From a virus, in IMG/VR virus record IMGVR_UViG_3300020192_000016, positions 1 through 48,626 of that record: 48,626 bases of DNA. The stretch is one strand, 5' to 3'. The translations under genes and the position numbers were made by a program. A model generated the notes under the pieces. That model saw only the letters and a list, made by a program, of their open reading frames with translations, did not search any database and was not told the DNA's origin. How positions within the stretch are numbered: position 1 is the stretch's first letter; every line of letters begins with the position of its first letter. Positions 13,573 through 46,299 of this stretch are shown piece after piece.

Positions 13573-15990
13573 CTAGTATTGACCTTGGCACGTAATAACG
13601 CCTGTGGTGTCAATTGTTGCACCATTGTCTCGGCGTACTGTTGCAAATACGATTGAGCTGCAAGAGCTACACTGCATAGTCTCGTTAAGCAATGCTTGTA
13701 TAGTCGCATTTGCAAAAGCGTTCGCAGTACATTTTAATTTTGAGTATGTCTTTGCAACATTAAAAGTATAGTTCCCTCCGCTTGCCCTTGTTATGCTTGT
13801 AACCGCGTTACCAATTTGATCGAGGTAAGAACATGGAGAAGCAGAACATACAGTTGTTGCATTTGTTGTTCCGTAACTAGCGCTAAATATTTCAAGATTG
13901 GAAGAAGCACCTGGAGTTATTGAGACACCTCGACTCTGAATAATTTGCTGACTAACAAATGAAGACTGAGTGTCTACAGTGCCTTTGCTACAAACCACCG
14001 ACACTGGTTTTTGATGAAGGGAAGTCCCGTCAAATACAGGCTTAAATTTAAGCGTCGTATTCGTCGAAACAACTGCCCGAACTGAAGACCCAGAAGAGTC
14101 ATCTGTAACGTTAATAGCGCAATTCATACCTTGAGTTAATATTGAAGAGTTGTAAGTACAAGTCCACTCATTAGAAGCGTACACGCAGTTACCATTTACA
14201 ATATCAAAGTTCTCATTGCTCACAACGCCGGCCGAACTTACCTGCCACGAGAAGTTTGTGGCGCAAAGGCGAGGATCAGAGCATTTTGTAGTGAAGGCTC
14301 CGGTGTCACCATCTAAAACGGGAACCGAATAATTGAGCGTCCATTTGGCAGAGCTTCCTATAAAAGCACTTACGTTGACAGGCGCAGTCATCGCGGCATT
14401 GTTAAAAGTGCCGGCCATGTAAACTCTGTCTGTTGCGGTGCCTGTAGCCGTAACAATGTTACCTAAAGAACTTGCACCATTCGTGCTGTATCGACCTACA
14501 ACATCACCTGAGGCGCCCGTGTTGTTAGTATTAATAATTCTTGAAGTGTCGATAGTGTAGCCGGTCGGAAGAAGCATCGCCCCAAGTGTCGCTGCGACTG
14601 TCCCTCCAGTAAAAGCACATTGTACGTGAAGTGTTGAACCATCCTGCCTGTACTTGCATGGAGTAGAACCACTTCCAGTCATGGTTCCCTGTCCAAAAAG
14701 GGTAGTGTCTGCCGTGAACGCTCCAAAGTTTGTCCAGTTAACATTCTTTGGACCAAAAGCCGTGTCCGATCTATCACCGACGTAAGCGTCATCTACGAGG
14801 TATGTAATCGCAGTCGCACCGATAAGTTCAACACCTGTAGAGGTGCCACCAAACAAAGGAAACACTGTTAGCTTTTGAGGTGCTCCGAAGTTTGTATAGT
14901 TCATACATCCGTTTTCAACCGATGCAGAGGAGACAGAAGTTCCGTTAATCAATGGACACAACCAAACGTTTCCAAGAGTCGATGAAGTTTGGAACCAAAT
15001 GGAACCCTCTGCATTGTTGCCAGACTTCGCGGTAGCATAAAGAGAAGACGCTTGTTTGAAAGTCCACGCGCCCGTTGAGGTATTAGTTAAAGATCTTAGC
15101 CCATCATGTAGGTTTGTAGATGATGAAGCAGGTGTACCCCCACCTGTAATGGTCCAGCTAGTCGCAAGAGAAGTATGCTCGAAGCTAGGATTCGCTAAAA
15201 GGTTTTTATTTCCCATCTCAACTAAAAACTTCTTAGCCGCTGTTTCAGTCAAAAGATTATTTGGAACCTGGATCTCTTCCAGTGGAGTTGATGATATAGC
15301 TTGTGACTTAGCCGAGACTACTCCACCATACTCAACCCAAGCAGCCCCACTATAATAGTTTGGCTTCGTCGTCGACGTATTATAAACAACAAGGCCAGTC
15401 GCAGGTGAAGCTATCGCATCCCTTTGAGCAGTAGTCATTCGAGGCGGAAGAAGTCCACGAGTTGTTGAAGTTAGATCAAGTAAAGCAGAACTATCTTCTA
15501 TAGAATTGTTAATAGCCAATGATCCGCTTGCAAATAGACGCATCTTTTCGGTCGCACCACCACCGTTTGCTGTTTGGACGAAGAAATCACCTTTATTATC
15601 AGCACCGCCTCGCAAGAAACCTAACCGCCCCAAAGTTGTTGGCCCAATGGCGTTATCAGCTACCGTGAATTGTAACCTAGACCCAAAGCCATCAACCATA
15701 TCGTTTACTGTCGTTCGATTAATGTTAAATACCGTTCCAGTTGTGCTTGTTGCGGCTGTACTGGCCACCGTAGTAAGTGAAACAGCGTCAGTGCCAGTTG
15801 ATATGGCCACTCCACCAGTACCGTTTGGAGCAAGGTTAATAGCCCCGTTTGCGTCGGTAGAAATAACAGTATTCGCAGATGCCTTAATGTTACCTGCTTG
15901 TACGCTCGTAAAGCTTGGCGTCTCTCCGACATACCCGGCCCAAGAATTGACGGCAATAATGCACGAAAGTAAAAGTAAAATTCTATTCAT
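13573..15990 (-). CDS. Exported cysteine-rich chimeric fibre protein
   Basis: 805-residue fibre-like protein. It starts with an apparent Sec signal peptide: Met-Asn-Arg, a hydrophobic core of about 13 residues, and a likely SWA/GY cleavage near residue 18. The ATG is firmly supported by AAGGAG. Next come Gly/Ser/Thr-rich trimeric-fibre repeats, the LPPRMTTAQRDAI segment common in fibre stalks (about 185-197), an NPSFE carbohydrate-binding-like module (about 268-400), and a C-terminal third with about 12 Cys. Signal peptide and many Cys are unlike cytoplasmically assembled phage fibres and imply export. It could be a host-surface adhesin carried by the phage, or a virion fibre recently derived from one. 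Confidence 0.75.
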   Translation of the reverse strand: MNRILLLLSCIIAVNSWAGYVGETPSFTSVQAGNIKASANTVISTDANGAINLAPNGTGGVAISTGTDAVSLTTVASTAATSTTGTVFNINRTTVNDMVDGFGSRLQFTVADNAIGPTTLGRLGFLRGGADNKGDFFVQTANGGGATEKMRLFASGSLAINNSIEDSSALLDLTSTTRGLLPPRMTTAQRDAIASPATGLVVYNTSTTKPNYYSGAAWVEYGGVVSAKSQAISSTPLEEIQVPNNLLTETAAKKFLVEMGNKNLLANPSFEHTSLATSWTITGGGTPASSSTNLHDGLRSLTNTSTGAWTFKQASSLYATAKSGNNAEGSIWFQTSSTLGNVWLCPLINGTSVSSASVENGCMNYTNFGAPQKLTVFPLFGGTSTGVELIGATAITYLVDDAYVGDRSDTAFGPKNVNWTNFGAFTADTTLFGQGTMTGSGSTPCKYRQDGSTLHVQCAFTGGTVAATLGAMLLPTGYTIDTSRIINTNNTGASGDVVGRYSTNGASSLGNIVTATGTATDRVYMAGTFNNAAMTAPVNVSAFIGSSAKWTLNYSVPVLDGDTGAFTTKCSDPRLCATNFSWQVSSAGVVSNENFDIVNGNCVYASNEWTCTYNSSILTQGMNCAINVTDDSSGSSVRAVVSTNTTLKFKPVFDGTSLHQKPVSVVCSKGTVDTQSSFVSQQIIQSRGVSITPGASSNLEIFSASYGTTNATTVCSASPCSYLDQIGNAVTSITRASGGNYTFNVAKTYSKLKCTANAFANATIQALLNETMQCSSCSSIVFATVRRDNGATIDTTGVITCQGQY

Positions 15991-19834: not shown

Positions 19835-20707
19835 TTATGTAAAAAACCAATCAGTTCCGTCAGTTAATAAGGTTACTCCCTCTCGCGTCGAGGTTAGGGT
19901 TTTATTCGAAGCTACGAACTCAATCTTCTCCCCTGCATTTCTAACCAGGGTTACAGTGCTTCCATCTGACTTCTTGATTTTAAAACTTCGATTTGCTACT
20001 GGGACAGGAAGCTGAATAAACAAAGCACCAGTAGTTAAGTATGCCTTACTATACTGCGCTGTGAAATCTATCGCCACGGCCTCAACTACAGGGTCCGCTG
20101 CTGGGCTTGATTGAAGGGTAACAATATCCGCCTGGGCAGTTACCATTTCAGCTTGAAGAGTCGCTACATCAGCTTCAAGGGTAACAATATCCGCTAGGGC
20201 CGCTACCATTTGAGCTTCAAGAGTCGAAACATCAGCTTGAAGGGCAGAAACATTCACATTCGTAGAATCTAGATCAGATTGAATTACAAATATCCCACCA
20301 GTATTAATAGTGCTTTGCTCTGAATTCGCTTTGATTGTCATAGCTAATCGGTCTAAAGATTTTTCAATTGCTTCTGGGGCAAAACGCCCCAAGTCTCGAA
20401 GCCTAGCTGGTTGCTGAGCTTCTTTAGTAAACTTAATTTGTAGGATGTATCCGGCCTTAAGGCCACCGCCAGCATCAAGCCATGGCTGAGCAGCAACCAC
20501 GAGGGTTAAGGAAGCGTCCCTATTAGGGATGCCTATATCCTCTAGGGTATAGTCATCATCAATTTCAAGGGCAGTTACAACGTCTAAGGCATCGACTACT
20601 TGAACCTCGACATTCTCTTTCTCAAAAGTTGGGAAAGGTATAGTAAACTCGATAACTGTACTATTCCTTGGGTAGCTAATGCTTGCTGTTTCAGTTAGAG
20701 CTATCAT
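19835..20707 (-). CDS. T7-type tail-fibre base protein with coiled coil
   Basis: 290-residue protein. The N-terminal about 130 residues look like the T7 gp17-type fibre domain that docks on the tail tube (beta-rich, with the IPNRDASLTL and RDLGRFAPEAIEKSLDRL segments). Residues about 165-210 are a regular coiled coil with a repeated ADIVTLEAD-like unit. The C-terminal 80 residues match the end of the protein at 16002-16451. The ATG overlaps the stop of the giant ejection-protein gene. Likely a trimeric adaptor that links longer fibres to the tail. Confidence 0.8.
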   Translation of the reverse strand: MIALTETASISYPRNSTVIEFTIPFPTFEKENVEVQVVDALDVVTALEIDDDYTLEDIGIPNRDASLTLVVAAQPWLDAGGGLKAGYILQIKFTKEAQQPARLRDLGRFAPEAIEKSLDRLAMTIKANSEQSTINTGGIFVIQSDLDSTNVNVSALQADVSTLEAQMVAALADIVTLEADVATLQAEMVTAQADIVTLQSSPAADPVVEAVAIDFTAQYSKAYLTTGALFIQLPVPVANRSFKIKKSDGSTVTLVRNAGEKIEFVASNKTLTSTREGVTLLTDGTDWFFT

Positions 20708-23700
20708 CTGTTATTCCTTTTAACTTCTCTTATTTGTCTTTGTCTTAAACGCTTATCTTGTCTTTTTTCTTGCTTAGAAGTTGTGTAGTCTAGGTCTAAG
20801 ATTAATCCCTTTCCAATTACAGATAAAGGGATTCCCGTCACTATTGTTAAAGTATTCATCAACGCAGTAACTTGCCTAGTGGTCATGTCAACCCCTTCAG
20901 CTTTTTTCTTAGTCGCAGTCACGGTTGTACTTAAATCTTTTACCTGGTCAAATACTGGACTTATTCCGGCCCTATCAAAAAACAAAGGAGCAATTAATGG
21001 CCGAGCGTAAAAGGGTATTGAGTTACCGATAAGAGTAGAACCCATCTCTATTGCAAGAGCTTTATTTTGCTTTTCTTGGAATTTAACTGAATCTTTTTTC
21101 TTTTCCTCTTCCTCTTCAGAAGTGTTGAGCTTAACTTGTGAAATTAGCCACGCCCCTATGGCCGGGAAGATACTCACATACATTGCCAGCTTAATCATCG
21201 ATGTTGCCCGATTTCTTGCCTTGTTATCTCTGTATGCTTCTTCGTGCATAAGATTACCCATAGCAATCTCAATCGTACTAATTGCTGTAAACGCTTTCCA
21301 GATTTCGTTTCCATTACCCTTAAGGTTTGATTGAGCACTAATCGCAGAAGACCCCTGAGTCCTTTTAACTGTATCGTCTGCATAAGCTATTGCCTGTGCT
21401 TCAGTAGAATCATTATCTAAAGAGTAGTTATATGCCGCAACCCATATAGGAACGCTCACTGCATTTTGAAATGCTTGAATTGCAAAAACTGCAAACCCTA
21501 AAGATTTATCCGACGTAAGTGTTAACCAATCCCAATGCAGATCTAATTGCTCAAAGGATTTGAAAGTGTTTTTCATCCCTTGACCTAACTCCGATCTCAT
21601 TACCGTTGATTTCTCCATTACCATTTCAGTAGTTTGTTTTGGGGACGCTCCATGCTGCCCGATAGCCAGGAGCATATTTGTTTTCCCTGTGAAAGGAATC
21701 GCAGGAGAAAAACCTAGAAACTGTTTCCCCCACACGTTAGGGTTAAGAAAAAATAACTTAATTGTTACGCCTTTTCTTATATGCCTCATAACCGTATTTG
21801 CAGAATCAACTCCAGAAGATTCGGTACGCCTTTGTAGTTTAATCCTATCAAACCATGGAGCTAATTGATTTTCCATAGACAATGGCCGTTTCTCTTCCAG
21901 CATAGAGCTAACCTGCTCAGACCCAAGTACCTTACCAAAGTCCGTCAACGCTTCTTTGATAAACGCCACGTTTGCTACACTGCCAAGAATTCCCATTATT
22001 TTATTAATATTCAAGTCAACAGGTTTGTATTTCTTAGATCGGCTATTAGCGAATCCAGTATCCATGTTTGGGAATAAATCGATGGAAGGGTAGTTATCAC
22101 TGTCTGGATTGAGTATAGAAGATATTCCCTCCGATGCGACAAAATCCTTTATGCTTCTTAGTGGGACATATCCACCCTCATAGTCACCCCAAGGAGTTTT
22201 AACTTTTCGCCCCTCGATGTATCCAACGTTTCTTCCGTCTACTTTTCTTAGCGTTTCTTTTGCTATTGGGTGTATCTCTTTAAATGCGTCCCATATAGTT
22301 TGGATAGCATCCATAAGCTCTTTAGTAATATCCCCAGAAGCTATTCGAGAATTGAAAAACTCTTGCCATTTACTCTCATCGAGTATTCCGGTATCAGGAT
22401 TTACGGCCCCCCAATCATTACCTAAAACTAGATGTCTTGCTCCTGAGTCACTTCCCATGTGAAGTATTGCCATTATCTCTTCACCTTGATTTGTGAAGGT
22501 ATAGTTAAGCCCTGGTGCAATGATAGGCCTTAGATCTGAAATGAACGACTGGATTATTGGTATAGTTCTCAAAGGAGATAAAATGCTTTTTAGTATAGAG
22601 TTTTTACTTGCTGCTTTTGTGAATGCATTTTGTATTATATTTATGTTCTTATTCATGAATATAGACCGCTCGGCTTCACCGTTTACAACCCTATTGTAAA
22701 CATACCCCAACATCGATTTATTGAACTCTAATGGGTTTTCAAACATAGAACCGAAAACCGTTCTTACGTCTGCGATATCCCTTAAGATTTCTCCTGTTAG
22801 GTTATCCCCTGCAGCGAATGTTAGGGGTGTGCTCCCAGACATCTCCTGAACTACTAAACTATTTGCTACTTCTATCTGAATTACTTTCCCATTAACTTCA
22901 ATCTCTTTTGCCTTCTTTGCTGCAAAGGCAATTGAATCTAGGATTTGTCCAAACTGTATAGACGAAGCAACATTTATTTTATCTCCAAGATTTCCTAAAC
23001 TCTGCCTAACAAATGCATCTATAGAACTGTTAATCATTTTTATGTGAGACTCTGGCAAAGCACTGTGGTCACTACTAAAGTTATCTCGGTCCATTGGTTC
23101 AATTGAATTCTGATTCGTAGCTACACTAATAATTAACTTCACTCCGAATTCTATAGCATCAACGTCTAGCTTATTTTTAAGAGCAGAAAGGTTATTAAGA
23201 CTTTTCTTAAACCACTTCATTCTAACTCTTGTTTTTGCCAATTTCTTCTGTGCCTCTTGAGCATTCTTATAAGCAAAGAAACTTACTGCTTCGGCCCTCT
23301 TTGCCTCAAATGCTCCGATTATATCGCCCTTGCCAAATAGGACAGATGCCTCTCTGCCGTGACGGATTGAATCCCCAAGAAACTTATTTGACGTAAACTT
23401 TTTACTAGGAGAATTTTCTACTACTAGATTTGCCTCTTCTATAATCGCAGGTTTTGACAGCCTAGCAATTAATGCCGCTGGAAGTATTGCTCTAGCCGAT
23501 AGCTTTCTAAGAGTTCCTAAGTGTAAATCAGCTAGTATCCTCATCTCTTCCAGAAGAAGCTTTTCTTTGCCATTACTATTGACTGCATCCACCGCTATCT
23601 GATGGATCTCTTCATCAGACTTCATGATAGGAAACTTCTCCTCGATTAGTGCATTCAACTTAGCTTGAATCATATTTCCGCGAGCACCTGCATCAAGCAT

Positions 23701-26700
23701 CATGTCTAAAAGAATTTGCTTATTAGATATGCCAAGCTGAAGTAGGACTACACTGACATCTAGTCCACCTTTCTTTTTACCTGTAATTAAATGCTGTGGT
23801 ATACGGGTTTTTAGTTCATCGGCAAAAGCAGCGTCCCCATTGGAAAACTCTCTTGCAAAAGATTCATAACTAATACGAGGATCTCCGCCCGTACTTCCGG
23901 CGTCCCTGAATTCCTTATAAGCATTTGCAAACTGGTCAGACATAACCATCGAAGGTAAACCAGAAATCTCTCTCGTTGCCTCTTCTAGTAATTGATTTTT
24001 CTGAGCATCAATTTGTGCCTCTCGCTCTTTAAGAGTTTTATTAAATGACTTTGTATACGCCTCTCCAATTGCTTGCGATCGGACATCTGCAAGCATGCCC
24101 ATATACTTAGGGCCATCTGGTCCTAGCTGTTTGGCATCGAATAACGGCTCTGTAAACATAGGAATAACTTCAGACTCAACCTTGCTTGAAACTCCAAGTA
24201 TTGCCTCAAACATTCTTTCAATCTCAGGAGATATTTCTACTCCCTGAAACTTTTTAATTCGAAGTATGTTTTCCGCAAATTCAGTTATCCAGTTACGAAA
24301 AGATTCCATAAGAGCTTTGACTTTATTGTTTTCAAATTTACCCTCAAGGAAATACTTCTCCGATGTACTAGCGAAACCCTCTTGAATCCTCGTAGCATCT
24401 TCAAGGGAAAGTAATTGTAGCTCTTGAATATTGTTAAGGCCAAAAGCTTCAGCGGCAATAACCATCGCAGCTTTGTACTCCGCTTGAGATGTAGTCAGCT
24501 TATCTTCAGGGATTGAAAATATGTATGCCGCATCCTCCGACATTTCCTGCAACCACGAATGTCCAAACTCATGAACTAGTGTCTTAACTGTTGCGTCTTT
24601 TGTAAGAGCAATAATATTTGGGTCCATTGCCGTAGGCCCAGTGGTGAAAGCTCCACCTTTACCTGGGGACACTGCACCCAACACTTTTATTCTCAGTGCT
24701 ACATCTTTAATTGGAAGCCCGAGAACCTCCGCTCTTACCTGTAAATGCCTGAATTGAAGATCGGCGAATATAACTAATGATTCAGGATTTACCTGAGAGC
24801 CCTTTGTGAATTTTCTTAAGTTAAAAAGTAGGCTGTTATAAACCTGCTTTTCATCCTGTGACCTAAATCTACTAACAAGTTCTACAGGTCTAGATATTGC
24901 ATTGTCGCCTGCTTCTATTGGAGTAATCATGGGGATTAAATCCGCAGAATCAATACTTACTGTATCGCCCTCTTTCCTAGGAACTCCTGGGATAGGTGAA
25001 GGTAACTCACCAGTTTCCTCGAAGAATGTTTTAGAAACTTCGATGTCACTATCTTTAAATACTACAAAGTTATACTTATTAGATTTTCCACCCTCTGCTT
25101 TATACTTTACCCCTTTTATCCCAAGATCATAAAGAAGCTTAGAAACTGCATCAGGACTACCTTCAGACTTTTCTAGTGATTTATAAAAAGTTTCTCCAGA
25201 CACATTTTGTTTTATTAAAAAAGAAAGCTTACCTTGTACATAGGGGTCTTGCTCATTTAATGGTAAACCCCAGTCAAGCATTTGCTCTTTTACTGCATTT
25301 ATCTTAACTTCAAATAACTGTCCCTCATTTTTTGGGATTACGGGGATTTGTGACTCTTCAATATAGTCCGTTATTATTTTCTTTGCTTCATCAGGTAGGT
25401 TTATTTCACTGTCATATTCCAAATTAGTAGGGTCTTTAATTTCAGTAAGTAATATTCTGGGTTCCCACATCGCGTATAACAACTCTGCAATTACATTTAC
25501 TAATGTGTAATCGCTTTTAAACTCTTCAAAGTCAAAAAGCAGAGTGGCATTGTTTTCCATGTAACTAAACGTATTTTCATATATAGCTTCTACGACTTCT
25601 GGATTACCACTTAACTGCTTTTCCAATTTTCTTGAAACTTCAAGTATAGTATAAAGGTTTACCGTTTTTCCCCTTTCGGAATCTAATTCTTTAGTTAACA
25701 TTCTTCTGTAGTAATCTGCAATGCCCTTATCTTCGGAGAAATAAAGCCCATGCCCAAATGCTTGATTACCCTCTCCTGTACCTATGCCCGATTTTTCAAA
25801 CTTATCAAATTTATGTTTAGTTCCGTGAAATGCAGTTTCCTCGAAGAATGTAAACGGGTCCTTCTGAATAGCATTATAAAGGTCTTCCCCTTCATTACCA
25901 CTTAGCTCATTACCATTGACTCGGGCAATCCCATCAACCTTCTTATCGCCTTCAGTGAATCTTAGCCACTCGCCAATTGAAATGTTCACCGATGTATTAC
26001 TTTCTCTATTCGCCTGGTACTCCCCAAGCTTCTCAGACCCAAAGCTACTCATTGCTACAGAAGGGTCGATATTTTTATTTAAGAAGTACTCGTCCCATTC
26101 CTTAGGAGATACAGAAACAATTCCGTTATTAGCTTCTTTTTCAAGCCTAACCGCTTCAACTTCTGCTGCCACGCTAAGACTGTCCGTAACCGTTCCTTCA
26201 GGTTCTACTACCCCACCGTTAATAACGGTATCTACAAGGTCCTGTGACTGCTGAGGGTTATCCGTAGATGCCTTAGAAGATTCTTTTGCCTCTCTTAACT
26301 CTGTTAGATTCAAGTGAGCTTGATTTGCTTTATTAGCTTCTTCGGCCCTAGCTACCGTTTTGTCTACGCCCCTCTTGAATATTTGGGAGCCTATACGAAT
26401 CCCGGCCGCAACAGGTGCAGTACCTAAAGTAGTTACCCCAGCAAAAACCCCTTCAGTCGTTGACTCCACGGCATTTACCGCAACAGCATTTCGGGTCAAT
26501 TCCCCTACTAAAGCATCTGCTGCATTCCTACCAAGAAAGTCTGCTCCTGCTTCTGAAACACCTTGAATTAAAACTTCTTTTCCAAGTCCAGTTACAACTC
26601 CACCAGCTTTCTTAATTACACCTTTCTTAGCTGCCATTACAACTGAGACGGGTTTAACCATGAACTTACCAAGAAGAGGAGTAGTTACAAAATCAGCACC

Positions 26701-28293
26701 ACCGACAATTAAACCAAATGCCGCTGCTTTCTTTCTCCTCTTTAAAACTTCTAATGGATCGGAAAAAGCTAGATCATAATCAATAATCCCCGTTTGTGGA
26801 TCACGATACTTCTCAATTTCTTTATCTAGATATTCGGAGTACCCAAGGGCCGAACCACCCGCTAATGAACCAAGTTTAAAACCCGCTGCCGCCCCCACAG
26901 GACCACCAACAATAGCACCGGCCACGCCTCCAGCCACCCCAGGGAGTAATGCCCCAAGAGACTCAGAAGCAATCAGAGTAGCAGCTACTTTATTCTCCGA
27001 TACTGTTTTGAATAAATTCATCAAAGCATCGAGGGACTCTTCCGTTCCATCATAGGATTTTTTAAGTCCCTCAACAAATCCGTCCCAACCTACACCCTCA
27101 ATAGGAGTTCGAGGGGCCATGAACTTTTGGTACGCTGGAAGTAAAGCAGATATGGAATCATTGATTTTTTTAACATCGTCTTTATTTAATGAATATTGAT
27201 TGGCCTGTCTTTCTTGGTCAATTCTTGATAAAAGTTTCTTGCCATCCTTAATGCCAATTGCTCCTAATGTCATACCAACGTGGACCTTACTAGCTTCAAA
27301 CATTAAACTATTAGATTTAACTGACTTAACAATATCGCCCCAAGCACTAGGGTTAAGAGGTTTTGCCGTAGCGGCAACCTGTGTTGCCCAATCCCCATTA
27401 TCTCTCATGAGAGCATAGTTGTTAGGCTCCCTAAGCCACGTATAAAGCTCAGGCATATACATAGAAATTACGTCATGCTTAGAATCTGCTTCGATCTGCT
27501 CAGGTGTTTTAATGGATAGTAGAGCGTCTACATCCTCGATGGGGATTCCAGTCTTAGCTGAAACTTCTCTCGCCTTTTGCTGATACGCTACCTCTTCATT
27601 GTCAATGGCACCAGAAACAAACTCAAGCCCAGATCTTCTCGTCTGAACGGGATCTGCAGGTCTTTGCTCACTATAAAAACTACCTGCAGCTTCATCAATT
27701 AACATATCTGGAGTTTTTAAAACCCCAACAGATGAATCAATATTCGGAGTTATTTCTGTGTCGTAGAATTGGGCCGTAGCTTCTGCTATTGAATTGTCAG
27801 AAGAAATAGATTGCTCAGTGGGGGATACAGGAACTAACTGGTCTGATGTTTGGCCAGACCATAATCTTGATCTGTCACTCGTTCTAGTAATCAAAGCAGG
27901 AACAACTTCCTTCTGCCCTGTAATAACGTTATCCGCCTTATTATACTCAAGTAGTTTTTGCTTTAGCTCATCATCAGAAGACCCCGAGTTGACCAAAGAA
28001 ATGAACCCTTCCATATTATGAGGACCCAAATTATAATACTTATCAATTAAAACGTTTTGCTGCGCTTGAGTTAAAGGTCTTGTAATCCTCGATGATAAAT
28101 ATGTTTCTGCTCGGGCCACATGACTACGTAGTCTTCTCTCTGCTTCATCCTCACTAATTGGTTTAGATTTATCCCCAAGGGTATCTCCATAGCCAATGGC
28201 AGTTTTGCCAGTATTTAAATCAGGATAAGATCTTGGAACAAATGATTCATGGTCCCTAATAAATTGTAAACCTTCTTCAGATGCTTTAATCAC
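20704..28293 (-). CDS. Giant ejected polyvalent protein: lysozyme, ART-like and zinc-peptidase-like segments
   Basis: 2,529 residues, the position and size class of the large T7-type ejected internal protein. Residues about 1-145 are a GH24 phage lysozyme (catalytic Glu in HESF, then GKTAIGYG and the TRTSDRSRLW end). Residues about 440-490 are a glycine-zipper hydrophobic segment. Around 823-855, FHGT ... GHGLYFSED matches ADP-ribosyltransferase-like domains of phage polyvalent proteins. HEFGH at 1241-1245 is a zinc-peptidase motif. The remainder is helical with a very basic C-terminus. It should be ejected first, cut the wall and line a conduit, and may modify host targets. Start GTG with AAAGGG upstream. 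Confidence 0.85.
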   Translation of the reverse strand: MIKASEEGLQFIRDHESFVPRSYPDLNTGKTAIGYGDTLGDKSKPISEDEAERRLRSHVARAETYLSSRITRPLTQAQQNVLIDKYYNLGPHNMEGFISLVNSGSSDDELKQKLLEYNKADNVITGQKEVVPALITRTSDRSRLWSGQTSDQLVPVSPTEQSISSDNSIAEATAQFYDTEITPNIDSSVGVLKTPDMLIDEAAGSFYSEQRPADPVQTRRSGLEFVSGAIDNEEVAYQQKAREVSAKTGIPIEDVDALLSIKTPEQIEADSKHDVISMYMPELYTWLREPNNYALMRDNGDWATQVAATAKPLNPSAWGDIVKSVKSNSLMFEASKVHVGMTLGAIGIKDGKKLLSRIDQERQANQYSLNKDDVKKINDSISALLPAYQKFMAPRTPIEGVGWDGFVEGLKKSYDGTEESLDALMNLFKTVSENKVAATLIASESLGALLPGVAGGVAGAIVGGPVGAAAGFKLGSLAGGSALGYSEYLDKEIEKYRDPQTGIIDYDLAFSDPLEVLKRRKKAAAFGLIVGGADFVTTPLLGKFMVKPVSVVMAAKKGVIKKAGGVVTGLGKEVLIQGVSEAGADFLGRNAADALVGELTRNAVAVNAVESTTEGVFAGVTTLGTAPVAAGIRIGSQIFKRGVDKTVARAEEANKANQAHLNLTELREAKESSKASTDNPQQSQDLVDTVINGGVVEPEGTVTDSLSVAAEVEAVRLEKEANNGIVSVSPKEWDEYFLNKNIDPSVAMSSFGSEKLGEYQANRESNTSVNISIGEWLRFTEGDKKVDGIARVNGNELSGNEGEDLYNAIQKDPFTFFEETAFHGTKHKFDKFEKSGIGTGEGNQAFGHGLYFSEDKGIADYYRRMLTKELDSERGKTVNLYTILEVSRKLEKQLSGNPEVVEAIYENTFSYMENNATLLFDFEEFKSDYTLVNVIAELLYAMWEPRILLTEIKDPTNLEYDSEINLPDEAKKIITDYIEESQIPVIPKNEGQLFEVKINAVKEQMLDWGLPLNEQDPYVQGKLSFLIKQNVSGETFYKSLEKSEGSPDAVSKLLYDLGIKGVKYKAEGGKSNKYNFVVFKDSDIEVSKTFFEETGELPSPIPGVPRKEGDTVSIDSADLIPMITPIEAGDNAISRPVELVSRFRSQDEKQVYNSLLFNLRKFTKGSQVNPESLVIFADLQFRHLQVRAEVLGLPIKDVALRIKVLGAVSPGKGGAFTTGPTAMDPNIIALTKDATVKTLVHEFGHSWLQEMSEDAAYIFSIPEDKLTTSQAEYKAAMVIAAEAFGLNNIQELQLLSLEDATRIQEGFASTSEKYFLEGKFENNKVKALMESFRNWITEFAENILRIKKFQGVEISPEIERMFEAILGVSSKVESEVIPMFTEPLFDAKQLGPDGPKYMGMLADVRSQAIGEAYTKSFNKTLKEREAQIDAQKNQLLEEATREISGLPSMVMSDQFANAYKEFRDAGSTGGDPRISYESFAREFSNGDAAFADELKTRIPQHLITGKKKGGLDVSVVLLQLGISNKQILLDMMLDAGARGNMIQAKLNALIEEKFPIMKSDEEIHQIAVDAVNSNGKEKLLLEEMRILADLHLGTLRKLSARAILPAALIARLSKPAIIEEANLVVENSPSKKFTSNKFLGDSIRHGREASVLFGKGDIIGAFEAKRAEAVSFFAYKNAQEAQKKLAKTRVRMKWFKKSLNNLSALKNKLDVDAIEFGVKLIISVATNQNSIEPMDRDNFSSDHSALPESHIKMINSSIDAFVRQSLGNLGDKINVASSIQFGQILDSIAFAAKKAKEIEVNGKVIQIEVANSLVVQEMSGSTPLTFAAGDNLTGEILRDIADVRTVFGSMFENPLEFNKSMLGYVYNRVVNGEAERSIFMNKNINIIQNAFTKAASKNSILKSILSPLRTIPIIQSFISDLRPIIAPGLNYTFTNQGEEIMAILHMGSDSGARHLVLGNDWGAVNPDTGILDESKWQEFFNSRIASGDITKELMDAIQTIWDAFKEIHPIAKETLRKVDGRNVGYIEGRKVKTPWGDYEGGYVPLRSIKDFVASEGISSILNPDSDNYPSIDLFPNMDTGFANSRSKKYKPVDLNINKIMGILGSVANVAFIKEALTDFGKVLGSEQVSSMLEEKRPLSMENQLAPWFDRIKLQRRTESSGVDSANTVMRHIRKGVTIKLFFLNPNVWGKQFLGFSPAIPFTGKTNMLLAIGQHGASPKQTTEMVMEKSTVMRSELGQGMKNTFKSFEQLDLHWDWLTLTSDKSLGFAVFAIQAFQNAVSVPIWVAAYNYSLDNDSTEAQAIAYADDTVKRTQGSSAISAQSNLKGNGNEIWKAFTAISTIEIAMGNLMHEEAYRDNKARNRATSMIKLAMYVSIFPAIGAWLISQVKLNTSEEEEEKKKDSVKFQEKQNKALAIEMGSTLIGNSIPFYARPLIAPLFFDRAGISPVFDQVKDLSTTVTATKKKAEGVDMTTRQVTALMNTLTIVTGIPLSVIGKGLILDLDYTTSKQEKRQDKRLRQRQIREVKRNNR

Positions 28294-28303
28294 AATGTAC
28301 CCT

Positions 28304-30004
28304 TTACTTTGCTGGATTGCTTAAATTGATTCCGTTGAATTGCATACGGTTTAAAATGCCCGTAATAACAGAATCATCGATGGATGCACCATTCTTTTTC
28401 TGTCTCTCTATAACTGCATCTCTCCACGATGGGTGGATTTTTGGACCTATAGTTTCTGGTTGTATTTCTTCTTCATTAAATGTTGGGATAAGCCCAAAGG
28501 TGATTCTATTAAAAAACCCTGGAGTCTTTACAACCGTAGGGACATACTTCGTAATTAGTGCTGCTTTAATCTTCCTTGATAACTCCGCTCTCCCAATCTT
28601 AGGATTCTCTTGCTTAAGCCTCTCGGCCTCTTCGAAGGCAATAGAGCTTATTCGCGAATACTCAGGGTCAGCAGGTATAAGATCGCCATTCAAAGCAGCG
28701 AAGTTCCTAACTACATCAGAATAAGCACTCTCAGTAAGAGAAGCAGTTTTACTCTGAAGCTCCAGACCAATTCTAGTTTGGGCAGAAGAGAAGGTACTAA
28801 AATCTTTACGGCTTAGCTTTGTTCTAAAAGAGCTTAAATCCCTTTCTGAAAATGCTTTGCGGTCATTTGCCATTTGATTAGAAAGGTCATCAAATACCCT
28901 GAAGTCCGTAGATACTGGAAGACCCTTAGAAATTACTTCCGCATTTCTTATTACTTCGGCCCTTTGCGCTTCTGGGACACTTAAGAGTAAATCGTTAGTT
29001 AACTGGCCACCCTTAATCAAGTGGGTGTTTACGGCCCCCATGATTTTTTCACCTTCAGCTTTCTTTTGCTTATTAGCAATCGAGTTACGAGAGTTAAGTA
29101 TGCTCATCGTTCGAGTGTATACAGCAGCGTCCATGCCATTATTAGTTACATGGCTACGAACTACAGCTTCCTGGGCTATCAAGTTATCTGAAGTCTTCAT
29201 GGCCTCTTCGGATAGTCCAAGAGCGTACCTGTCACCCTCATCTTTTTTGGCAGAGTCTAGTAGTCCAATAGCTTTTACTTTGTCATCTGGAGTGAAAACG
29301 TCTGCATTAACCCCATACAATATTTCAGCCGCTCGGTTAAGATTTCCCGACTTTGCTTGTATCCCCACCGATCTCAGTAATGCATCTGATTGTGATTTAT
29401 TAACAGCACCAGCAATTAGCTCTACATTATCGCCATACTTATTTCTTGCACTTTGAATAACAGACTTCGATATTTCATCTAACGAAACTCGTAGGCCCAT
29501 ATCAGAACCAGAACTTTCAATCGTAGAGTTTATGGTGTTTAATGAGTGTTGGTTAAAAGCTTCTTGCTTTACCTTCTGACTCTGCATAACTGTATATGGA
29601 AGTGCTGTTCCCTCATATCGATTTCTGAACTTACCGCTTATGCCCTCGCCTTCAATCAGTGGTCTAAATCTCTCGGGAACAGATTCTAAATTTTTCGCTA
29701 ACTGTTTATCTAAGTTATCTCTATTGTCTTTAAGTGCCTTAATTGAGTTAAGACCGCTCTGACTTGTAACTCCGACTTTTGCCTGAATTAAAGCATTCTC
29801 GTTCTTATTCTCAAGATCCGCTTTAAAAAATGAATAGTCTCTTTTATCTTGTATTTCTTGTCTGGTTTGTTGGTCTTTAAAGCCTTGGGCGGCTGTGTTC
29901 AAAAAAGTCTTATCAATCTTAGGTGCAACAGCACCCGAAAATCTCGTTCCTTGTTGAGGACGAAGCCTTACAGTATCCATTTGTTGAGGTGATCTAAATC
30001 CCAT
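28304..30004 (-). CDS. Internal virion protein, T7 gp15-like
   Basis: 566-residue, almost entirely helical and charged protein, with a proline-rich start (residues 1-30). It lies directly between the gp14-like gene and the giant lysozyme-containing protein, matching the T7 order gp14-gp15-gp16. The function by analogy is a part of the ejected trans-envelope conduit. AAGGA precedes the ATG. There is no catalytic motif. The assignment rests mainly on synteny, length and helical composition. Confidence 0.75.
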   Translation of the reverse strand: MGFRSPQQMDTVRLRPQQGTRFSGAVAPKIDKTFLNTAAQGFKDQQTRQEIQDKRDYSFFKADLENKNENALIQAKVGVTSQSGLNSIKALKDNRDNLDKQLAKNLESVPERFRPLIEGEGISGKFRNRYEGTALPYTVMQSQKVKQEAFNQHSLNTINSTIESSGSDMGLRVSLDEISKSVIQSARNKYGDNVELIAGAVNKSQSDALLRSVGIQAKSGNLNRAAEILYGVNADVFTPDDKVKAIGLLDSAKKDEGDRYALGLSEEAMKTSDNLIAQEAVVRSHVTNNGMDAAVYTRTMSILNSRNSIANKQKKAEGEKIMGAVNTHLIKGGQLTNDLLLSVPEAQRAEVIRNAEVISKGLPVSTDFRVFDDLSNQMANDRKAFSERDLSSFRTKLSRKDFSTFSSAQTRIGLELQSKTASLTESAYSDVVRNFAALNGDLIPADPEYSRISSIAFEEAERLKQENPKIGRAELSRKIKAALITKYVPTVVKTPGFFNRITFGLIPTFNEEEIQPETIGPKIHPSWRDAVIERQKKNGASIDDSVITGILNRMQFNGINLSNPAK

Positions 30005-30015
30005 CGCTGTTTTCC

Positions 30016-30744
30016 TTATACAGCGGCAAATGCCAACTGTGTACCAAATTTAAGTCCCGACCCTATAACGGCATTGTTGCGAGCAACCCTCGCCTGCTCT
30101 ACTTGGTATTCGTAGTTTATCTGCTCAAGCTCAAAACCTAGAGCTTCTCTAAGAGAGTTAACTTCCTCTCTCATTCCATTCATAATTCCCATAGCTTCAA
30201 AAGACCCTTGGATCCGTTGAACCCCTGCGCCATCTACTGCTTGCCCTTGCGCTGCCATTGCAAGCAAAGCGTCCTGTCCCGCATTGTATCCTCCTGATTG
30301 TGCATCTGACTGCGCTTGGCGTCCACGAAATAGAGAATCTGCTGCCTGATTTCTTGATTGGATTATGTTTAACTGCGCCTGACCTTTAACCGTCTGGTAT
30401 GCACTATTAGCATTTAAGATGTCTGTAGCAAAGCCTACCCCTGCTAAAGCGAGGTTTAGATTGCGGGTCTTATTTGCTTGGGCTTCAATTGTCTCTGCTG
30501 TAGTCTTAGGTTTAACGATTTGTCCGGCCTCCACCTTATCTTCTAACCCCATCGACATTTCATTGCTTACGGTATTACCAGAGAGCTTCATTTCCTGCTT
30601 AGGAGTAGTTCGTATAAGGTCTGTCTCAGGGAGGACATCCGAAAGGACATTTACCCCACCAGAAAAGTTTCTCTTCTTTGTTACTGGGTCCAAATAAACA
30701 TTTATTGGTTCTCCATATATAGTGCTAGAATCTCTAAATGCCAT
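30016..30744 (-). CDS. Internal virion protein, T7 gp14-like
   Basis: 242-residue protein. An Ala/Gln/Gly-rich helical region of about residues 95-205 has a hydrophobic stretch near 98-112, as in gp14-type ejected proteins that insert in the outer membrane. AGGAG lies just upstream of ATG, and the start follows the tail-nozzle stop by one base. Order and size fit the T7-like ejection module. Confidence 0.75.
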   Translation of the reverse strand: MAFRDSSTIYGEPINVYLDPVTKKRNFSGGVNVLSDVLPETDLIRTTPKQEMKLSGNTVSNEMSMGLEDKVEAGQIVKPKTTAETIEAQANKTRNLNLALAGVGFATDILNANSAYQTVKGQAQLNIIQSRNQAADSLFRGRQAQSDAQSGGYNAGQDALLAMAAQGQAVDGAGVQRIQGSFEAMGIMNGMREEVNSLREALGFELEQINYEYQVEQARVARNNAVIGSGLKFGTQLAFAAV

Positions 30745-45345: not shown

Positions 45346-46299
45346 ATGAAAAAAGAAGAATTAAAACTAATACTAGATAACCACGCACTTTGGGTGTCAA
45401 ACAATTCGAAGGGCATGAAAGCTGATTTAACTCATGCTGATTTAACTCAAGCTGATTTATCAAATGCTAATTTAAGTCGCGCTGATTTATCAAATGCTAA
45501 TTTATATAATGCTGATTTATCAAATGCTAATTTATATAATGCTGATTTATCAAATGCTAATTTACGTCATGCTGATTTATCAAATGCTGATTTATCAAAT
45601 GCTGATTTATCAAATGCTAATTTAACTCATGCTAATTTACGTCATGCTGATTTATCAAATGCTAATTTACGTCATGCTGATTTATCAAATGCTGATTTAA
45701 CTCATGCTAATTTACGTCATGCTGATTTAACTCATGCTAATTTACGTCATGCTGATTTATCAAATGCTGATTTACGTGATGCTGATTTATCAAATGCTGA
45801 TTTATCAAATGCTGATTTAACTCATGCTAATTTAAGTCGCGCTGATTTATCAAAAGCTGATTTATCAAATGCTGATTTATATGAAGCTGATTTCACTTCG
45901 ACGCTCTTGAGACTAAGTAACTTACGATTTGCGAATAACTTACTTACAATAAAAAGTTTACCGGCCGCAAAAAGAGAGTTGTTTGAAAAGCTTGGCGCAT
46001 TTAAAAATGAAGCTCAAGGACTATATAAAGCAGCTGTTGGCGGAAAGATCGACGGTTCAGCATATGAGGGCGACTGTGCTTGTTTTGTTGGCACTATTGC
46101 AAACTTGTTGGATCAAAATTACAAAGAGCTAGAAAACTTGAAACATGATGATGAGTCACTCATTGAGCGTCTTTTTTCAGCTGTTACTACGGGCGATACA
46201 CCAACGAATAACCCAATATCGAAGATTGTACAAGATTGGTTGATTGAATTTATGGGCATATACGACATCGAAGTTCCAACTTTAAATTGGAGTAAATAG
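45346..46299 (+). CDS. Pentapeptide-repeat protein with C-terminal domain
   Basis: 317-residue protein. After a short head (EELKLILDNHALWV, common in phage members), residues about 25-185 are some 32 pentapeptides of the A(D/N)LxN type, predicted to form a right-handed square beta-helix. The last about 120 residues are a different domain with GKIDGSAYEGDCACFVGTIA, seen in other pentapeptide proteins. Some family members (Qnr, MfpA) mimic DNA and bind gyrase; whether this one does is unknown. GAGGGG precedes the ATG. Nearly every unit uses the same codons. Confidence 0.9.
   Translation: MKKEELKLILDNHALWVSNNSKGMKADLTHADLTQADLSNANLSRADLSNANLYNADLSNANLYNADLSNANLRHADLSNADLSNADLSNANLTHANLRHADLSNANLRHADLSNADLTHANLRHADLTHANLRHADLSNADLRDADLSNADLSNADLTHANLSRADLSKADLSNADLYEADFTSTLLRLSNLRFANNLLTIKSLPAAKRELFEKLGAFKNEAQGLYKAAVGGKIDGSAYEGDCACFVGTIANLLDQNYKELENLKHDDESLIERLFSAVTTGDTPTNNPISKIVQDWLIEFMGIYDIEVPTLNWSK

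Follow-up and report, generated by a model that had tools for sequence, protein, structure and literature searches.

A giant gp16-position protein of polyvalent build, with an ADP-ribosyltransferase-type segment in an exchanged slot, in a podovirus-like viral contig

The IMG/VR virus contig IMGVR_UViG_3300020192_000016 (48,626 bp, analysed at its full length and referred to as the window) encodes a protein of 2,529 amino acids that is probably a podoviral internal virion (ejection) protein of the gp16 position, with the build of a polyvalent protein. Several unrelated predicted catalytic domains are combined in it with a polyvalent-protein associated domain: a lysozyme, an ADP-ribosyltransferase (ART) and a zincin-type metallopeptidase, followed by a long helical C-terminal part. 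Comparison with its relatives separates parts that are fixed from a slot whose content is exchanged; this comparison is new, while the protein class itself is known. The features of the gene are as follows.

20704..28293, minus strand: whole open reading frame (ORF), 2,529 amino acids, GTG start, single and stop-free
27799..28293, minus strand: GH24 phage lysozyme, residues 1-165 (PF00959, phrog_7, E16/D25/T31)
27391..27576, minus strand: degenerate LPD22 (polyvalent-protein associated domain), residues 240-301 (weak, E 0.15)
26656..26958, minus strand: glycine-zipper/hydrophobic segments, residues 446-546 (hydropathy), candidate for inner-membrane insertion
25012..25845, minus strand: ART domain, residues 817-1094 (PF18760, model, conservation), exchangeable cassette
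24064..24621, minus strand: predicted zincin-type metallopeptidase domain of CLCA_X type, residues 1225-1410 (invariant residues)
24559..24573, minus strand: HEFGH motif, residues 1241-1245 (exact match in the translation)
22774..24066, minus strand: conserved helical region, residues 1410-1840 (H2 segment profile matching 102 ORFs; model)
21565..22773, minus strand: region matched to the T7 gp16/PhiM1 ejectosome, residues 1841-2243 (VIA-align ranks 1 and 2)
20806..22524, minus strand: phrog_9880 C-terminal module, residues 1924-2496 (E 7e-110)

Domains of the large protein

A sequence-only reading of this DNA had placed a 2,529-residue protein at 20704-28293 without giving its strand. A single frame does run open there for 2,529 codons, on the minus strand, with an AAAGGG-like stretch upstream of its GTG start; a plus-strand reading of the same interval was rejected, as its frame is full of stops. 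The N-terminal GH24 lysozyme seen in that reading was likewise recovered, by PF00959 over residues 14-137 (E 3.9e-13, 50.3 bits against a cut-off of 22.3) and by the phrog_7 endolysin family (1.2e-19). The catalytic residues E16, D25 and T31 are present with spacings of 9 and 6 residues, as are E11, D20 and T26 in T4 lysozyme; the relative L088 carries a leucine at the threonine position. Hydropathy also bears out the proposed glycine-zipper membrane segment at residues 446-546, and detects further hydrophobic segments at 2364-2384 and 2481-2501 in the C-terminal part.

Residues 817-1094 are, as judged from profiles and the predicted fold, an ART of the ART-PolyVal/PARP type, in the place where an ART-like region (about 823-855) had been suggested. 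PF18760 matches residues 822-914 with E 1.9e-5, under its cut-off, while the same-slot ART domains of the phages DC33, ctQRb9 and Jess A reach 72-79 bits to ART-PolyVal; on sequence, the ART-PolyVal assignment appears weak in the window protein alone and strong in its family. Relatives of the ART-region alignment are encoded by 573 viral-contig stretches, and in the aligned rows H823 is invariant (110/110) and Y851 nearly so (103/110), which are the strand-1 His and strand-2 Tyr expected of ART-PolyVal (Tox-ART-HYD2 clade). In an AlphaFold2 model of residues 800-1420, covering ART and zincin, the ART core is confidently predicted, mostly at pLDDT above 85. VIA-align matched this model to diphtheria toxin (Z 8.7 over 143 residues, 4.0 Å) and to tankyrase (Z 8.3 over 129 residues); the top row, chain B of 9k3a, has Z 10.6 but a root-mean-square deviation of 17.6 over two separate parts. 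Foldseek also returned tankyrases, without significance, and 32 of the 33 PDB sequence matches of the ART and zincin profile were PARPs or cholix toxin, none of them strong by itself.

The zinc-peptidase motif HEFGH claimed for residues 1241-1245 is exact, and its residues H1241, E1242 and H1245, together with E1305, are each invariant in 104 of 104 aligned rows; an HExxH arises in a shuffled copy of the protein with P 0.016. The surrounding segment folds at a pLDDT of about 90, with E1305 inside a predicted helix, in line with the glutamate that zincins carry in the second C-terminal helix. The structure prediction by which the sequence-only reading was to stand or fall returned the ART fold and no zincin match; the match list covered model residues 9-303 only and had been filled by the ART, so that the missing zincin is uninformative either way. 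When PDB sequences were searched with profiles of the zincin and of the C-terminal part, nothing convincing came up. Residues 700-1000 of Bbp10 from phage BPP-1, a relative of the window protein, served as a seed of the CLCA_X zincin family (Lenart et al. 2013, PMC3650047), which places residues 1225-1410 in a family already predicted to be zincins. The large protein of phage AF (L013) contains a second HExxH, HEVQH, at residue 807, upstream of the conserved one and in the payload slot beside LPD23.

The roughly 1,200 residues behind the HExxH motif had been called unexplained, which no longer holds: they form a conserved helical part that includes the phrog_9880 module. A model of these C-terminal 1,128 residues (pTM 0.71) is nearly all helical, and VIA-align, comparing it with 452 chains, ranks gp16 (chain I of the T7 core) first (231 residues, Z 7.8, below the chance level for helical models) and the PhiM1 ejectosome second (230 residues, Z 6.5). 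Both matches fall on model residues 440-840, and the other top rows align about 80-130 residues. As the Z score lies under helical noise and sequence profiles disagree, the gp16 match is suggestive only; gene position gives independent support for a gp16 likeness. Profile comparisons found no sequence link of the module to T7 gp16, and none was found to the C-terminal part of the N4 virion RNA polymerase either. The window protein and L098 have a basic C-terminus as in T7 gp16; across 93 relatives this does not exceed background, and it was dropped as a shared feature. Among predicted viral structures, 70 match the C-terminal model at E ≤ 0.001, several of them named polyvalent ART, MuF-C or nuclease.

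Fixed chassis and exchanged slot

Searches with tblastn found relatives at low identity in 69 phage records, and scans of viral contigs added many more; profiles of our own picked out 103 ORFs by the zincin and 102 by the C-terminal part, some overlapping loci being counted twice. About 100 viral-contig and phage relatives have in common a chassis of LPD22, zincin, helical region and C-terminal module, with the HExxH aligned in all full-length relatives inspected. Scanned with Pfam, the N-terminal parts of 71 proteins contained LPD22 in 66 cases, and the slot before the zincin held ART-PolyVal as its commonest payload (23/71), other payloads being PBECR1/3/5 nuclease, LPD3, MuF-C, GNAT, ddrB-ParB, RadC and Pol-beta domains. 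Annotated phages follow the same pattern, with PBECR1 in BPP-1, PBECR5 in Carin1 and Ab9, ddrB-ParB in ctCJ8213, and ART in Jess A, DC33 and ctQRb9.

Closest to the window, L088 has all parts, whereas L098 is without exactly the ART, residues 2-820 and 1118-2526 of the window protein aligning to its residues 6-770 and 783-2197, and L100 is without both ART and lysozyme. Since the zincin is invariant and kept where the ART is lost, its role probably belongs to the chassis and is not tied to the ART.

Three observations on individual relatives stand apart from this census. Sulfitobacter phage phiGT1 encodes a stand-alone ART of 387 amino acids, gp5 (L009:4918-6081), between its portal and scaffold genes and 26% identical to the window ART; the domain also travels as a structural-region gene of its own. 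Caudoviricetes sp. vir555 (L008:7558-13482), with Methanomicrobiales (archaea) as listed host, has the same chassis and an ART 54% identical over 54 residues, GH24 and SLT not being detected in it. Limnohabitans phage DC33 (L003, PQ492659) is filed under Inoviridae in GenBank taxonomy, while its genes are those expected of a tailed podovirus, and it is likely misclassified.

Gene position, murein hydrolases and DNA entry

The genes around the large ORF, all on its strand, are:

30016..30744, minus strand: protein of 242 amino acids at the gp14 position (by position alone)
28304..30004, minus strand: protein of 566 amino acids at the gp15 position, without the SLT hydrolase insert carried by relatives
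19835..20707, minus strand: fibre-like protein at the gp17 position, its N-terminus matching tail-fibre families

A family scan of the 242-residue protein gave no match. The large gene lies between the gp15-like gene and the fibre gene, overlapping the latter by 4 bases. On this strand the order is terminase subunits, portal, protease, major head protein, two tail genes, the 242-, 566- and 2,529-residue proteins and the fibre, which agrees with 12-14-15-16-17 of T7; with genes 8-10-11 the T7 order extends the match to the upstream head and tail genes. Annotated relatives with the same order name their genes 'internal virion protein A/B, structural lysozyme, large protein'.

In most relatives with a gp15-position protein of about 700-770 amino acids, this protein carries an SLT domain. 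Iterated profiles connect the family of the 566-residue protein with 50 of 51 SLT-bearing homologues, in which the SLT separates the two halves that match. The window's clade thus carries its hydrolase, GH24, on the large protein, beside a homologous 566-residue protein without SLT. Swaps of hydrolases between gp15 and gp16 have been described (PMC8954989), as have hydrolase-like domains on both proteins of PhiM1 (PMC11440229). GH24 was seen only in the window, one Pfam-scored relative and, by our own profile, L098, and Pfam scans detected no replacement hydrolase in the other phages without upstream SLT. The swap is therefore limited to the window's clade, and the broader idea that every phage lacking the upstream SLT has a hydrolase on its large protein is unsupported.

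The analysis shows the domain identities by sequence, the ART fold of the model, the gene order, the conservation, and the gain and loss of modules; packaging, topology, the order of events and all enzymatic activities we infer as follows. The protein would sit in the filled head, above the portal, and leave with or ahead of the DNA. Its lysozyme would open the murein locally, the job of the SLT in the gp15-like protein of related phages. The glycine-zipper (446-546) and C-terminal hydrophobic segments (2364-2501) would insert into the inner membrane, and the helical C-terminal part, gp16-like, would form an inner-membrane/cytoplasmic hub for DNA entry. By analogy with T7 gp16, ART and zincin, located between the membrane segments, would reach the cytoplasm, where the ART may ADP-ribosylate a host macromolecule; the zincin, as part of the chassis, would most likely process the protein itself, or release or activate the payload. 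Delivery with the DNA, which the sequence-only reading took as given, is a good inference from gene order and the cyanophage A4 pre-ejectosome precedent; that reading's suggestion that the protein could modify host defence or RNA polymerase amounts to no more than a guess.

Several points weigh against a polyvalent ejection protein. The PF18760 score of the window ART, 25.9 bits, stays under the Pfam gathering cut-off of 31.2, and column 1080 holds K here against D in 65 of 90 relatives. No zincin fold match was obtained, though the ART had filled the match list. Besides the sub-chance Z score of the gp16 match, profile-profile comparison with T7 gp16 gave nothing (hhalign probability about 1%, E 0.06). 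The undetected replacement hydrolases noted above belong here too, and no prophage relatives were found as a clue to the host.

The state of the ART bears on a further alternative, in which the domain is self-directed or degenerate, a pseudo-ART serving as structural spacer or as binder of NAD or ADP-ribose. Polyvalent ARTs have an H-Y-D configuration (Iyer et al. 2017, PMC5512222), with the Asp in strand 5, and this third catalytic position is not clean in the window protein: next to K1080 stands D1081, in a column with D or E in 60 of 90 relatives, so that either residue is an uncertain candidate. The ART is moreover dispensable in the close relatives L098 and L100. Yet the conservation of H823 and Y851 is stronger than a spacer would predict, and the ART is the commonest payload; we consider this alternative unlikely. 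Somewhat less doubtful, though still on the improbable side, is a purely structural zincin, a carrier fold by which the adjacent payload is kept in check until the protein is ejected. The N4 virion RNA polymerase offers the precedent, its HExxH-containing C-terminal domain (C1 2124-2375, C2 2376-3500) reportedly autoinhibiting the polymerase (PMC12633501), and it has the layout of payload, HExxH and helical part in common with the almost wholly helical window model. Four putative zinc-binding or catalytic residues invariant in all rows nevertheless exceed the needs of restraint, the C-terminal part is without sequence similarity to N4, and the zincin aligns with it on the motif at P 0.08 only. 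A lysis or tail protein that is not ejected, as GenBank names such as 'lysis protein', 'lysin' and 'tail protein' on relatives or analogues would have it, is highly improbable: the A-4L protein annotated as 'tail protein' forms chain B of a solved pre-ejectosome, the gene stands in the gp14-15-16 position, and in relatives the endolysin is encoded by a gene of its own.

If the ejection protein is read correctly, the machinery by which many small phages bring in their DNA also delivers effectors, from a cargo bay of modular design. Cargo function and delivery are directly testable with the natural pairs (the window and L088 with ART, L098 and L100 without) and with the culturable relative Caulobacter phage Jess A, which has an ART in the same slot.

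Elsewhere in the window, a family A DNA polymerase, helicases, a primase and an exonuclease are encoded, and the ORFs scanned included no RNA polymerase gene. A protein of 317 amino acids at 45346-46299 (plus strand) consists of pentapeptide repeats (PF00805, E 1.7e-56); pentapeptide-repeat proteins are capable of DNA mimicry and of acting on gyrase. An 805-residue tail-region protein at 13573-15990 (minus strand) starts with a signal-peptide-like N-terminus (MNRILLLLSCIIAVNSWAG), which is odd in a virion protein, and a peptide-pattern search of genome contigs gave no relatives of it.

Comparison with known systems

The polyvalent architecture proposed earlier is supported by the presence of ART-PolyVal and by a family defined through LPD22 and zincin. 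Iyer et al. 2017 (PMC5512222) described this pairing, and their polyvalent proteins likewise fuse ART, zincin metallopeptidase, lysozyme and LPD domains in giant late-gene proteins. New compared with that work are the combination of N-terminal GH24, ART, zincin and phrog_9880, the census of chassis and payload, and a near relative without exactly the ART. Bbp10 of BPP-1, gp16 of AF and the proteins of Jess A, Carin1 and DC33 have the same succession of LPD22, payload, HExxH and helical C-terminus at the same genome place, at 20-28% identity to the window protein and with PBECR1, LPD23, PBECR5 or ART as payload. BPP-1, AF, Jess A and Carin1 carry SLT on the upstream protein, whereas the window has GH24 on the large one; the upstream gene of DC33 is cut and stays outside this comparison.

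T7 gp16 and the tetrameric PhiM1 ejection protein occupy the same gene position and are the best structural matches of residues 1841-2243. As described, T7 gp16 comprises a hydrolase, a membrane region, a cytoplasmic hub and a second membrane region (PMC8954989); its murein hydrolase is N-terminal as in the window protein, an SLT on gp16 where the window's clade has GH24, but it has no ART or zincin, and the window protein has both. Chain B of 9k3a is ORF27 of cyanophage A-4L, a pre-ejectosome protein at the same position, and the matched stretch starts at a YHGT (1425)...GTYFS motif, so that an ART-like segment is physically resolved in a podovirus pre-ejectosome, C-terminal there and mid-protein in the window. 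ORF27 was rejected as a chassis relative, as it has no zincin or phrog_9880 sequence similarity; its region of about 1300-1410 before the ART (L185:20116-25269) looks ParB-type by eye.

The closest functional parallel is the N4 virion RNA polymerase, an ejected giant protein of the same plan, with an RNA polymerase as payload, an HExxH and about 1,100 helical residues that cannot be aligned with the window protein. We tentatively propose, while leaning slightly against so broad a generalization, that podovirus polyvalent proteins of the LPD22-zincin-phrog_9880 type serve as gp16 in their phages: a single ejectosome chassis whose fold is homologous to that of the C-terminal part of T7 gp16, with an interchangeable slot (ART, RNase, ParB, acetyltransferase), a hydrolase that moves between gp15-like and gp16-like subunits, and the N4 RNA polymerase following the same plan.

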